Source: an uncultured Flavobacteriaceae bacterium (GTDB lineage Bacteria; Bacteroidota; Bacteroidia; Flavobacteriales; Flavobacteriaceae). From it: 64,000 bases of DNA. Shown one piece after another: positions 2,546-54,743 of the stretch. The notes under the pieces are model-generated. The model was given only the letters and a program-made list of their open reading frames with translations, did no database searches and had not been told where the DNA came from. Every line of letters starts with the position of its first letter. Position 1 is the stretch's first letter. Position numbers and translations under genes: made by a program. The stretch lies in NCBI GenBank assembly GCA_947486785.1, contig CANKUU010000008.1:62001-126000 (forward strand). Reading direction: 5' to 3'.

Positions 2546-3658
2546 TTAAGAGAACATATCTTTTACTTTTTCGAAGAAAGATTTATCTGATTTTTCAGGG
2601 TTTGGAGTAAAATTCTCATTCGTTTGCATTTTCTCAAAGAACTCTCTTTGTTCTTTATTTAATTCTTTAGGTGTCCAAACATTAACATGAACTAACAAAT
2701 CACCGCTGCCATAGCCATTTAAACTAGAAATTCCTTTTCCTCGTAATCTTAAAATCTTTCCCGATTGAATGCCTGGTTCTAATTTTATTCTCACCTTACC
2801 ACCAACGGCATCTATTTCTTTTGAGGTACCTAAAACAGCTTCTGAGATACTAATATAAAGGTCGTAATGTAAATTATCTCCTTCACGTTTTAGCGTTTCG
2901 TGGTCTAAAGTTTCAATAGCCACCAATAAATCACCAGGCACACCATTGCCTGGTGCTTCATTTCCTTTATTAGGTACTTTGAGCTGCATACCTTCCTCAA
3001 CTCCTGCAGGTATATTTATTGAGACTGTTTCTTCTGAAATTTTCAATCCTTGGGCATCTGCATCACTTGGACGCTTATCTATCATCTGCCCACTACCTCC
3101 GCACGCGTTACATGTGGCTGCGGTTTGCATTCTACCTAAAATGGTATTTGTTATTTTAGTTACTTGACCGCGACCAGCGCAAGTACCACAAGTTTTGTAT
3201 GTGACACCAGATGCTTGTACTTTTCTACGAACTTTTACCTTTTTTTCTACACCTGTAGCTACTTCCTCTAGATTTAACTTTACCCGTATTCTAAGATTGC
3301 TGCCTTTTACTCTACGCTGACCTCCACCGCCGAAGCCACTAAATCCACCTCCGCCGAAAGCACCACCAAAGATATCGCCAAACTGACTAAAGATATCATC
3401 CATATTCATACTGCCGCCGCCATGGCCGCCGCCACCTTCAAATGCAGCATGACCAAACTGATCATATCTAGCTTTTTTATCAGCATTACTTAAAACCTCA
3501 TAAGCCTCCGCAGCTTTCTTGAAATTTTCTTCTGCCTTTGTATCATCTGGGTTTTTATCAGGATGATACTGAACTGCTTTTTTACGATAAGCCTTTTTAA
3601 TCTCGGCAGCGCTAGCATTTTTACTAACACCTAAAATCTCGTAATAATCTTGCTTCAT
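2546..3658 (-). CDS. dnaJ: Chaperone protein DnaJ
   Basis: Hsp40 co-chaperone that stimulates DnaK ATPase and delivers unfolded clients. The J domain has HPD at residues 32-34, followed by a Gly/Phe-rich linker (about 74-114), a cysteine region and the two C-terminal beta domains. Only two CxxCxGxG-type motifs are present (CGTCAGRG 157-164 and CNACGGSG 183-190), corresponding to repeats 2 and 3 of the four in E. coli DnaJ. The outer pair is missing, so only one zinc site can form. As far as I know other flavobacterial DnaJ proteins share this layout. It starts 9 bases after the grpE stop, so the two are co-transcribed; dnaK is not nearby. Confidence 0.95.
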
Positions 3659-3667
3659 TCTTTTTTC

Positions 3668-4234
3668 TTAGTTCCCGACAACCACTTTTGGGTGACGAAT
3701 GATTTTATCTCCTAACTTAAATCCTTTTTCAACAACATCAACTATCTTACCTTTTAACTTCTTATTTGGTGCGGCAATTTGAGTAATCGCATCGTGAACT
3801 TCAGCATCAAACGCATCTCCTTGCTTCACTTCCATCTCAAGTAAACCTTTGTTTTTTAAGGTTTCTTTAAACTTATTGTTAATCAATTCAATACCCTTAA
3901 ACATTTCTTTTTCTTCTGACTTTGAAAGCTCTTTTAAAGCACGGTCAAAATCGTCTATTACGGGTAATAAAGAAATTATAACTTCTTGACCTGCGGTTTT
4001 AAACAGCTCTATTCGCTCTTTAGACGTACGTTTTTTATAATTTTCAAATTCGGCAAAAAGACGTAAAAACTTATCCTTTTCTTTAGCTAAATCTTCTTGT
4101 AATTTTTCTTCTATTGATACTTCCTCTATTTTTTCAGGGCCTACTTGCTCTTCGGGGCTTACCTTCTCTTCGGTATTTACTTCTGCATCAGAGCGTATAT
4201 CTTCTACTTCTTCAGATTTATCTTTTTCACTCAT
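3668..4234 (-). CDS. grpE: Nucleotide exchange factor GrpE
   Basis: Releases ADP from DnaK. I chose the start MSEKDKSEE at 4234; the longer frame up to 4318 would run through the sigma-54-type promoter seen at 4267-4283. The 188-residue protein has a very acidic N-terminal tail (about 55 residues), the long coiled-coil helix ending in FENYKKRT, and the C-terminal beta domain with the family signature around KGFKLGDKIIRHPKVVV. First gene of a grpE-dnaJ operon. Confidence 0.93.
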   Translation of the reverse strand: MSEKDKSEEVEDIRSDAEVNTEEKVSPEEQVGPEKIEEVSIEEKLQEDLAKEKDKFLRLFAEFENYKKRTSKERIELFKTAGQEVIISLLPVIDDFDRALKELSKSEEKEMFKGIELINNKFKETLKNKGLLEMEVKQGDAFDAEVHDAITQIAAPNKKLKGKIVDVVEKGFKLGDKIIRHPKVVVGN

Positions 4235-4266
4235 TAGAACTTGTATTTTTTCATTCAATTTTGATT

Positions 4267-4283
4267 TGCAAAAGTACTGCCAA
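4267..4283 (-). promoter_or_regulatory. Sigma-54-type promoter of grpE-dnaJ
   Basis: Minus-strand TTGGCAGTACTTTTGCA has the -24 GG and -12 GC exactly 10 bases apart, as in the sigma-54 consensus (TTGGCAC-N5-TTGCW). Predicted transcription start is near 4256, about 20 bases before the GrpE start. Just upstream (4294-4299 and 4303-4308) lie two direct copies of ATGTCA, the same half-site that forms a dyad upstream of hsp20 at 53568. Confidence 0.65.
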
Positions 4284-4447
4284 TTCTTTAAAAATGTCAA
4301 AATGTCATAAAAAAACATAGAAAATTTTGATCGATAGTCTATCTAAAAAAAGAATACCGACACAAAAAAACGAGAGATTACAAGCCCTAAACTAAAACCA
4401 TAGTTTACGACATTAAAGTACGAACATGAAGGAGTAATTGTATTGTA

Positions 4448-25624: not shown

Positions 25625-26062
25625 TTATTCGAAAATTCTTAAGATATTATTAGACAATGCAGTTCTATATACTTTTAGGGGCCTTGCTGAATTTGAATCT
25701 ACCTGATTAATAGGTGTACCATTTTGCTCGAAACGAGAACCGTGTACATCGCAAAAAAATATACCTCCATTTTGGTTAGTAAAACGAACTTGATCAAATG
25801 CTTGATGGCTACAAATTTGACTAGCAGCTATAAATTCACCCTCTAGATTTTTTACAATTACGACTGAATTTTTTAAAATAAAGCCGCCATTTTCACTCAA
25901 ATTGCTTGCTTCATCTGACCTAAGATCAACGGTAAAATCAACCGGAGAAGTATCAGCACTAGTACTATCATCATTTTTAGAACAGCCTACATAGCAAGGA
26001 AAAACAAGTGCAAAGGCAGCACCGGCACCCAAGGTTTTTAAAAATTTTTTTCTTTCTATCAT
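25625..26062 (-). CDS. Rieske [2Fe-2S] lipoprotein
   Basis: Small exported electron carrier. The N-terminus has a hydrophobic segment ending in a lipobox-like VGC (C27), preceded by MIERKKFLKTLG, so it may be a membrane-anchored lipoprotein. The cluster ligands are the canonical C-x-H and C-x-x-H pairs: CSH at residues 84-86 and CDVH at 104-107. The 145-residue size fits a stand-alone Rieske domain, not a cytochrome bc subunit. Partner unknown. Confidence 0.87.
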   Translation of the reverse strand: MIERKKFLKTLGAGAAFALVFPCYVGCSKNDDSTSADTSPVDFTVDLRSDEASNLSENGGFILKNSVVIVKNLEGEFIAASQICSHQAFDQVRFTNQNGGIFFCDVHGSRFEQNGTPINQVDSNSARPLKVYRTALSNNILRIFE

Positions 26063-26925
26063 TTTGAAATTAATTATATTTTAGAATTATAACCGCAACT
26101 TGAAATATTCCTAGCAGTTAAACTTCAATTAAGTTAACAAATTAAATGCCAAAAAGAGTTATTTTATATTCTAAAAATAAGCCTATTCCTATTTGGTTGA
26201 ATAAATTAATTGTTTTTTTTACCGAAGTGGTTTTCTTCTTCATCACTAATTTTATCTTGCGGTTTAAAAATTTTAGTATCCCCATTTGTCACTAATCATA
26301 TTCCCTGGTAGCCACAATTATTTTAGGAACATGCTGTTTTTAGATCAATACATGATTTTGCAGGTATTCTTAAATCACCTCTTAATTTTAACTTGCAACC
26401 ACATTTATAGCTAACAATTTACTAAGAATACATAACTTTTTAGAGCACTAAATCACAAAATCGTCTTTCACAACTTATATAAGAAATGGCGCTAACCAAA
26501 ATAGCTGAGCTGTTATAATTTTATAACTTTCTTTATGCCTTTAAACTTATAAAAACCCAGATATACATTACTGATAGTGACAGTAGTATTTTTTTATGCT
26601 TTTAAGCTAGGTTTAGCTTCTAGACACACTAAAAAGAGCATCTTTAGTATTGATTCTAAAAAATATTCCCCTCATAATTAATATGAAAAATATACTTAGT
26701 TTCGGTCTTTTCGATTGCATTTATTCAGCGGCTTATCTACAGTTGCAGATAGAATAACTTATACTTTACACAGTATACTACTTGCCGTTTTTGGCAAAAT
26801 TTTAATAGCACAAGGTCTCGTGACCACAAAATGAATTTTGCTGATATTCATTAAAATTATATCGGCAATAATTCGAACAAGTCATACACGACGACAACCA
26901 AAACACACACAACTATTCGTAAGCT
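26063..26925. other. Gene-poor gap
   Basis: About 860 bases with stop codons in all frames; no gene, RNA or repeat recognised. Confidence 0.4.
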
Positions 26926-53340: not shown

Positions 53341-53567
53341 AACAAACCTATTTTTAAAATTTTAAACAATAATTTTTAGCAAAAAAATACTTTTTAAAAA
53401 CTCTAAATTTTCTTGTAGCAGCAAAAATTAAAATGCAATTTTAAAGAATAGCGCTACTACGATTATGCGTATTTAGCTATTCTAATATTCAAAAAACAAG
53501 CCAGCACCTAATCAAATGACAGGCAGCTGTTTAAATATGAAAAAATGACATTTAAAGCGAGGTTAAA

Positions 53568-53582
53568 ATGTCAGAATGACAT
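53568..53582. promoter_or_regulatory. Upstream dyad of hsp20 (enhancer-site candidate)
   Basis: ATGTCA-GAA-TGACAT is a perfect inverted repeat, about 115-130 bases before the predicted hsp20 transcription start, the usual distance for a sigma-54 activator site. Another TGACAT lies at 53546-53551. The same half-site is repeated upstream of grpE. Confidence 0.55.
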
Positions 53583-53738: not shown

Positions 53739-54215
53739 ATGAGCAATCTTGTAACAAAAAGAAATGAAAGTTTAGCAAACACAAATTCGAATGGTACTAC
53801 TTTCCCCAAATGGTCTTCATGGATTGATGAAATGTTCAACAGAGATTTACCAACTGTTTTTACCTCAAATTTTAATACCGGAATAACCCTGCCTAAGGTA
53901 AACATCAGGGAAACTAAAGATGCTTATTTTGTTGATATGGCGGTGCCTGGTCTCAAAAAATCTGATTTTAATATTGATCTTGATAACCAAGTTTTATGCA
54001 TTTCTACTGAAGTAGAAGAAAACAACGAAAACCAAAAAGAGAATTATATTAGAAGAGAATTTGGTTATTCATCTTTTAAAAGGACCTTCTCGCTACCAGA
54101 AACTATAAAAGAAGATGATATTAAAGCAGAATATTACGATGGTATTCTAAGTATACACTTACCAAAGAAAGAGGAAGCCATTCAAAAACCTGCAAGGAGC
54201 ATCAAAATTTCATAA
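53739..54215 (+). CDS. Small heat shock protein Hsp20 (first)
   Basis: ATP-independent holdase. Start MSNLVTKRNE at 53739, downstream of the sigma-54 promoter. The alpha-crystallin domain covers about 50-150: TLPKVNIRETKDAYFVDMAVPG, REFGYSSFKRTFSLPE and the strand YDGILSIHLPKKE, and the C-terminal anchor I-x-I (SIKIS) is present. Followed by its own terminator, so the second hsp20 may need separate or read-through transcription. Confidence 0.93.
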   Translation: MSNLVTKRNESLANTNSNGTTFPKWSSWIDEMFNRDLPTVFTSNFNTGITLPKVNIRETKDAYFVDMAVPGLKKSDFNIDLDNQVLCISTEVEENNENQKENYIRREFGYSSFKRTFSLPETIKEDDIKAEYYDGILSIHLPKKEEAIQKPARSIKIS

Positions 54216-54305: not shown

Positions 54306-54743
54306 ATGAAAGTATTTGGAAAAGAAATAGGAAAGGATATTAAGATACCCCCTGTTATCGATAATTTTTTCGGCAAACTATTACCCAATAAAAATAGTGA
54401 TAATGAAGAATTGGTTACCATTCCTTCTACCAATATTAGCAATGAGGAAAAGGCCTTTGAGCTTTCTTTTGCACTACCTGGTTTAGATAAAAACGATGTA
54501 AATATTCAAATACAAGACGATTATCTTATCGTTAGTGCGTATAAAAATGAAAGTCATGAAGAGAAACACAAAAACTGGGTAAGAACCGAGTTTGTGAGCA
54601 ACTCGTTCTACAGAGCCTTTGCCTTACCGTCGAATGCAGATTCTGAAAAAATTGAAGCTAAAATGAAGAATGGTCGCCTAGATATTAGGGTGGCAAAAGC
54701 TAAGCAGGGTACCGCTAAAAGCAAAAGCATTCGCATAAATTAG
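54306..54743 (+). CDS. Small heat shock protein Hsp20 (second)
   Basis: Divergent paralogue of the preceding gene (145 residues). Alpha-crystallin domain with AFELSFALPGLDKNDVNIQ, WVRTEFVSNSFYRAFALPS and MKNGRLDIRV, ending in SIRIN (I-x-I anchor). N-terminal arm is shorter and different, so the two may form distinct or mixed oligomers. Followed 65 bases later by the YfdX-type lipoprotein gene. Confidence 0.92.
   Translation: MKVFGKEIGKDIKIPPVIDNFFGKLLPNKNSDNEELVTIPSTNISNEEKAFELSFALPGLDKNDVNIQIQDDYLIVSAYKNESHEEKHKNWVRTEFVSNSFYRAFALPSNADSEKIEAKMKNGRLDIRVAKAKQGTAKSKSIRIN

Follow-up and report, generated by a model that had tools for sequence, protein, structure and literature searches.

A sigma-54-type promoter and a paired site upstream of grpE

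The DNA analyzed (the window, 64,000 nucleotides) corresponds to G000:C8:62001-126000 of a 3.57-Mb assembly from a member of the Flavobacteriaceae, and positions are those of the window unless a contig is named. The locus considered here contains grpE and dnaJ, both on the minus strand and both taken from the list of open reading frames. The start of grpE was picked from the position of the promoter within an open frame of 3668-4318, and a profile search placed a PF01025 match for grpE at G000:C8:65674-66129. The name dnaJ is our assumption, based on its sequence. The features are as follows.

4307-4303, minus strand: first operator pentamer, TGACA, 24 bp 5' of the first T of TTGGCA; conserved
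4299-4295, minus strand: second operator pentamer, TGACA, 16 bp 5' of the first T of TTGGCA; conserved, with a variable middle base
4283-4268, minus strand: sigma-54-type -24/-12 element TTGGCAGTACTTTTGC (GG-N10-GC), by sequence match
4269-4300, minus strand: putative housekeeping promoter overlapping the sigma-54 one, TTG (4300-4298), 21 bp, TACTTTTG (4276-4269)
3668-4234, minus strand: grpE, ATG at 4234
2546-3658, minus strand: presumed dnaJ

The minus strand 5' of grpE reads TGACAtttTGACAtttttaaagaaTTGGCAGTACTTTTGC, and the stretch containing both elements is ttaTGACAttTTGACAtttttaaagaaTTGGCAGTACTTTTGCA. The original prediction had placed a GG-N10-GC element on this strand with two tandem ATGTCA copies 9 bases apart just upstream. 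The element is present, as TTGGCA...TTTTGC at 4283-4268, and both copies are real; their spacing was misjudged, the copies starting at 4294 and 4302 with a period of 8 bp. The site has the form TGNCA-N3-TGNCA (13 bp), with 11 bp between the pentamer pair and TTGGCAGTACTTTTGC, and lies at approximately -51 to -39 if G4280 is taken as -24. The TTG of the housekeeping-type promoter overlaps the second pentamer. A supposed difference between direct half-sites at grpE and inverted ones elsewhere proved not to be real; the pentamers are alike except for their middle base, and at grpE that base is variable.

By itself, the hexamer ATGTCA shows no enrichment, with 20 copies in the window compared to 25.6 expected by shuffling, and TGG-N10-TGC alone is not rare (19 compared to 17.9 expected). 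Because both are at chance level, bare GG-N10-GC and bare ATGTCA were rejected as evidence. What exceeds chance is the arrangement, a spaced pair together with a promoter, and not the hexamer or the bare promoter pattern.

The paired site in the rest of the genome

The sequence TGWCANNNTGWCA was found at 7 places in the 3.57-Mb genome, with 1 match for the reversed control. These places lie 5' of grpE, dnaK (L187), htpG (L034), hsp20, and the miaB operon (L032), with two others, at C2:75735 between genes and at C12:67188 within an open frame. The intergenic copy (G000:C2:75735-75747) has no chaperone gene seen nearby. Four of the 7 places fall within the six 250-bp regions upstream of chaperone genes (p about 1e-12, by a test devised after the data were seen).

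The operators at the other chaperone genes resemble that of grpE in position. The dnaK operator TGACAtccTGTCA is located 11 bp 5' of TTGG[CT]A, as at grpE, and the same distance is found for TGTCAtttTGTCT at clpB and TCACAaaaTGTCA at groES, each with one mismatch, the groES operator having one good half-site. At htpG the full site TGTCAgttTGTCA lies one base further from the promoter than at grpE. The GG-N10-GC element is exact at grpE and hsp20, ends in GT at dnaK and groES, and ends in GA at clpB and htpG. The predicted sigma-54 regulon, whose members would share a half-site, is supported by the recurrence of the spaced pair 5' of grpE, dnaK, htpG, and hsp20. Among the further genes that had been put forward for checking, dnaK has the full site, and groES-groEL and clpB have it with one mismatch each. 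The outcome that would have refuted the idea, no enrichment 5' of chaperone genes, did not occur for the spaced pair; ATGTCA alone is uninformative on this point. That a single protein binds all of the sites is still an inference, as there are no binding data.

The hsp20 locus lies within the window and differs in layout. Both hsp20 genes are from the list of open reading frames, and their names are presumptive, given from sequence.

53546-53550, plus strand: additional TGACA 5' of hsp20 (another at 53517-53521)
53569-53581, plus strand: distal operator TGTCAgaaTGACA, the sole TGTCANNNTGACA in the genome
53669-53684, plus strand: sigma-54-type element TTGGCATTTATTTTGC
53739-54215, plus strand: presumed hsp20, ATG at 53739
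54306-54743, plus strand: presumed second hsp20, 3' of the first

The hsp20 pentamers start 92, 100, 123, and 152 bp 5' of TTGGCA, and no proximal site was found at hsp20 of this genome. The data for hsp20, htpG, and clpB are from this genome only.

The exact motif TGGCAN5TTTGC was rejected as a marker of the regulon. It has 15 matches in the genome, most of them inside open frames, so that a promoter match by itself is not enough to delimit the regulon. Promoter searches allowing one mismatch returned at least 100 places and were left out of the genome-wide counts. Two promoter-like sequences without an operator were observed: an exact TTGGCAAGACTTTTGC at G000:C16:61711-61726 (L060), approximately 20 bp 5' of a gene for a 232-aa putative secreted protein, and TTGGCATTTAATTTG at window positions 26138-26152 (minus strand), approximately 90 bp 5' of the open frame at 25625-26062 (minus strand), which we take from its sequence to be Rieske-like.

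Conservation at grpE and dnaK

All 90 family genomes contain GrpE, and each of the 90 upstream regions was read. The composite TGACANNNTGNCA-N10..14-TGGCANNNNNTTTG has matches in 84 of the 90 genomes, compared to 0 of 90 for the reversed control. Counting from the initial base of NTGGCA, 87 of 90 grpE upstream regions have both TGNCA pentamers at -24/-16 or -25/-17, these being divided into TGWCA forms (70 at -24/-16 and 2 at -25/-17) and TGNCA forms (12 and 3, respectively). The three exceptions are L113, with the pair at -66/-58, and L152 and L155, in which the second pentamer is degenerate. Note that the presence of TGGCA in 90/90 is by construction, since the promoter was located by searching for it. 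When the analysis was anchored on the operator alone, one operator was found in 88 of 90 regions, and in 87 of these 88 it is followed by GG and TTG with the spacing of a sigma-54 promoter. DnaK was likewise found in 90/90 genomes. Of the 30 dnaK loci examined, 28 have the operator at -24 or -25 (26 were identified by script and the other two, L225 and L234, by eye), one (L240) has it at -66, and one (L224) lacks it.

The grpE promoters also retain a housekeeping-type box. TAnnTTTG is given as the housekeeping (sigma-A) -7 consensus of Bacteroidota in the available text of PMC9723704. Its TA is in place at 79 of 90 grpE promoters, and for the 72 operators of the tighter form the gap from operator to box is 18 in 63 and 19 in 1, the box being absent in 8; a gap of 18 is also the modal value at miaB promoters. 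The spacer GTACT is kept in 69/90 grpE promoters, and the 21 without it keep TA in 10 cases and TTTG in 20. In the genome of the window, TAnnTTTG is absent from the grpE-equivalent position at dnaK, groES, and clpB, where the GG element is present. We read grpE as having, in most genera, two putative promoters that overlap, one of the sigma-54 type and one of the housekeeping type.

Sites upstream of groES

For groES we compiled 77 upstream regions, from the genome of the window, 18 of 20 fetched family loci, and 58 of 80 loci from named genomes. TGWCA is found at -16/-17 in 53/77 and a distal full operator in 45/77; the script found neither a proximal nor a distal site in 14/77, partly because it missed the promoter. 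Any TGNCA-N3-TGNCA in the 260 bp 5' of groES was present in 56/77, compared to 0.23% of shuffles. The distal sites cluster near -44/-46, -54/-56, -64/-65, and -74/-77. With a period of 10.5 bp their phasing has an R of 0.75 for all 45 and 0.54 for the 16 unique positions, with a phase close to -24. None of 5000 random sets was as strong for the 45 positions, and unique positions without the main cluster gave a p of 0.006. A potential concern is that this test was devised after seeing the data and that its null assumes independent positions even for relatives that share spacing; shared ancestry thus weakens it.

Many of the distal groES sites are part of the secG terminator stem, which is followed by a T run. 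At L188, 5' of groES at about G000:C1:438356-438380, operator sequence is embedded in the stem of this intrinsic terminator, and the same is seen at many groES loci. The sequence TGACAAGCTGGCA in this genome was rejected as a proximal groES site because it is part of this stem, and was kept only as a possible distal site. One stretch of DNA at groES may thus be both terminator and distal binding site, a possibility for which there are no binding data.

A candidate activator linked to groES-groEL

The genome contains four strong PF00158 proteins. One of these, 423 aa long, is the activator in the gene series miaB-activator-lptE-TPR-secG-groES-groEL, in which lptE, TPR, and secG are presumptive names given from sequence. 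A profile search identified PF00158 (7.7e-67), an AAA lid, and a Fis-type HTH (PF02954, 2.2e-10) in this protein, and no receiver domain. The alignment contains GAFTGA (GSFTGA in some relatives), and the HTH is almost invariant. The activator is present in 90/90 family genomes at 64-100% identity, as is RpoN (PF04552) in 90/90, this genome included, and 18 of 20 fetched family loci show the whole series miaB-activator-lptE-secG-groES-groEL. The structure predicted for the activator was of low quality overall (pLDDT 58.5), and no fold search was based on it; in the region of the C-terminal HTH, helices at 381-420 were predicted with pLDDT of at least 80. The alignment also reveals a conserved linker helix between AAA+ and HTH at residues ~280-310 (predicted helix 280-310, low confidence), which might serve in sensing or in binding a partner.

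The paired site is also found at the operon of the activator. We scanned 80 Bacteroidota loci from named genomes, with titles that include Flavobacteriaceae, Pedobacter, Olivibacter, Hymenobacter, and Bacteroidales. TGNCA-N3-TGNCA was found within 300 bp 5' of miaB in 54/59 and within 260 bp 5' of groES in 41/58, compared to 6 occurrences in 928,180 bp elsewhere in these loci. The strict form TGWCA-N3-TGWCA gave 30/59 for miaB, 15/58 for groES, and 0 elsewhere; a narrower initial count, made before the site family was widened, had given 47/53 for miaB. Among the 20 fetched family loci, 15 of 19 have a site within 450 bp 5' of miaB. TAnnTTTG follows the site by 16-20 bp in 45/52 miaB promoters, and TGGYA was found within 20 bp after the site in 0/52. 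Because the site sits on the -33 region of a housekeeping-type promoter of the miaB-activator operon, autorepression is the natural, inferred reading. In Bacteroidales loci such as L307, L308, and L312 the activator is present and no site was found upstream of it; several related loci (L295, L300, L306, and L323) carry the site 5' of groES.

A second sigma-54 activator gene is located just left of the window, at G000:C8:59889-61052 (minus strand). It encodes a 387-aa receiver-AAA+ protein without a C-terminal HTH and follows grpE-dnaJ-ABC-ABC-MscS in the same direction, five genes 3' of grpE. This protein may act without DNA binding.

We consider the 423-aa protein the probable sigma-54 activator of the chaperone genes. 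Its binding to the sites is inferred, and rests only on gene linkage and on the site at its own operon.

A model for chaperone control and its alternatives

We favor a model, likely in our judgment but well short of settled, in which grpE-dnaJ belongs to a sigma-54 chaperone regulon driven by the 423-aa protein at TGNCA-N3-TGNCA, with autorepression at miaB. The grpE-dnaJ promoter would be one member of this regulon, and the dedicated enhancer-binding protein, an AAA+/Fis-HTH protein encoded just 3' of miaB, would bind the 13-bp site. The end of the site is approximately 11 bp 5' of the -24 box at grpE, dnaK, clpB, htpG, and groES (one good half-site); at hsp20, 1 of 30 dnaK loci, and many groES loci, the site is located at a greater distance, largely on the same helix face. 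The bound protein is predicted to activate RNA polymerase-sigma54 through ATP hydrolysis, and where the site covers the -33 region of the miaB-activator housekeeping promoter, binding would result in repression. At grpE, where the overlapping housekeeping promoter has a miaB-like geometry, binding may also switch between polymerase forms. What is observed is the sites, their positions and conservation, the gene linkage, and that the genomes contain rpoN and the activator gene. No binding or expression data exist for the 423-aa protein, and its binding, activation, autorepression, and inducing signal are all inferred. A broader version, speculative and on balance doubtful, would have the Bacteroidota heat-shock response rely on a dedicated sigma-54 activator that has no receiver domain and is encoded near groES-groEL. 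Chaperones bound to its linker helix would report unfolded protein to it; it would turn on chaperone genes from a site abutting the promoter, repress its own operon through a housekeeping promoter, and switch between two overlapping promoters at grpE.

Several points count against the activator model. Enhancer-binding proteins do not usually have sites as near to the predicted start as ~40-50 bp, and such a site would also suit a repressor. The grpE promoter also matches the housekeeping type, with GTACT conserved more than sigma-54 alone would need, hsp20 lacks a proximal site, 14 of 77 groES regions gave neither kind of site in the script, no site was found 5' of the activator in Bacteroidales loci, and there is the second activator gene 3' of grpE. 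A separate repressor with an HrcA-like role could bind TGNCA-N3-TGNCA while sigma-54 is driven by another activator such as the 387-aa protein, which matches PF00072 and PF00158, has no HTH match, and is in the same orientation as grpE-dnaJ. The abutment of site and promoter at grpE is suited to repression, but the far-upstream sites in helical register (dnaK -66, groES -44 to -85, hsp20 -100) suit an activator better, and the sole conserved non-chaperone location of the site is the operon of the 423-aa activator; we regard a separate repressor as improbable, while still the strongest of the competing explanations.

Somewhat less credible is that grpE is transcribed mainly from the housekeeping promoter (TTG-N21-TACTTTTG), the sigma-54 match being incidental there. 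The retention of TA in most grpE promoters and the 18-bp gap shared with miaB are consistent with this. However, promoters without GTACT keep TTTG twice as often as TA, the operator-anchored reading still recovers GG and TTG at sigma-54 spacing, and at dnaK, groES, and clpB the GG element occurs with no such box; moreover, the grpE start in Flavobacterium psychrophilum is sigma-54-type (PMC9723704). We give very little credence to the OmpR-type response regulator RprY as the regulator. According to the accessible portion of PMC3646045, which reports EMSA and a self-regulation test in Porphyromonas gingivalis, RprY binds the groES, dnaK, and clpB promoters of that species but not htpG, whereas htpG in our genome has a full site. 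By eye, no OmpR-type gene adjoins any of the 7 genome sites.

Comparison with known systems

That sigma-54 controls flavobacterial chaperones has been reported before. In F. psychrophilum, mapped starts with a sigma-54 motif include those of groES-groEL, lon, dnaK, grpE-dnaJ, htpG, skp, and clpB, and the SM4 (sigma-54) promoters of cluster B254 have the same gene set (groES-groEL, dnaK, grpE-dnaJ, htpG, and lon, with clpB in another cluster) and the same -24/-12 type (PMC9723704). That study derived promoters from mapped starts and expression; its available text names neither an operator nor an activator, and leaves the activator open, with three PF00158 proteins suggested as possible activators. 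A cross-bacteria survey based on promoter matrices reports sigma-54 enrichment at groEL, ibpA, groES, grpE, dnaJ, and dnaK in Bacteroidota, highest in Flavobacteriia; in the part of its text available, no dedicated activator is named and 'bebp' and 'upstream activating' have 0 occurrences (PMC12316311). A limited search of the open literature, judged from titles, abstracts, and passages, revealed neither this operator and its fixed position nor the candidate activator, and they appear to be new. Because the promoter and paired site recur with the same spacing before other folding genes and before the likely activator gene, the comparison of sequences points to a shared stress-response switch in Flavobacteriaceae. 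With one candidate protein and an exact site, the question of chaperone control in a large phylum is narrowed to a single binding and knock-out experiment.

The proposed regulator and its site each have a counterpart among known systems. PspF is a sigma-54 activator that lacks a receiver domain and represses its own expression. The 423-aa protein resembles it in having AAA+ and Fis HTH domains, no receiver, and a site on its own promoter, but differs in its long linker with a conserved helix and its linkage to groES-groEL; it does not meet the PspF equivalog cut-offs (268.9 and 220.7 bits compared to 443.55 and 529). The conserved site, TGNCA-N3-TGNCA, did not match the CIRCE operator. As in the HrcA/CIRCE system, a short operator is common to chaperone operons, but its sequence and spacing are different and it is coupled to sigma-54. 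If the model is correct, a site that abuts the -24 box, lies in helical register with distal copies, and doubles as a repressor site on a housekeeping promoter would, by inference, be an uncommon arrangement for sigma-54.
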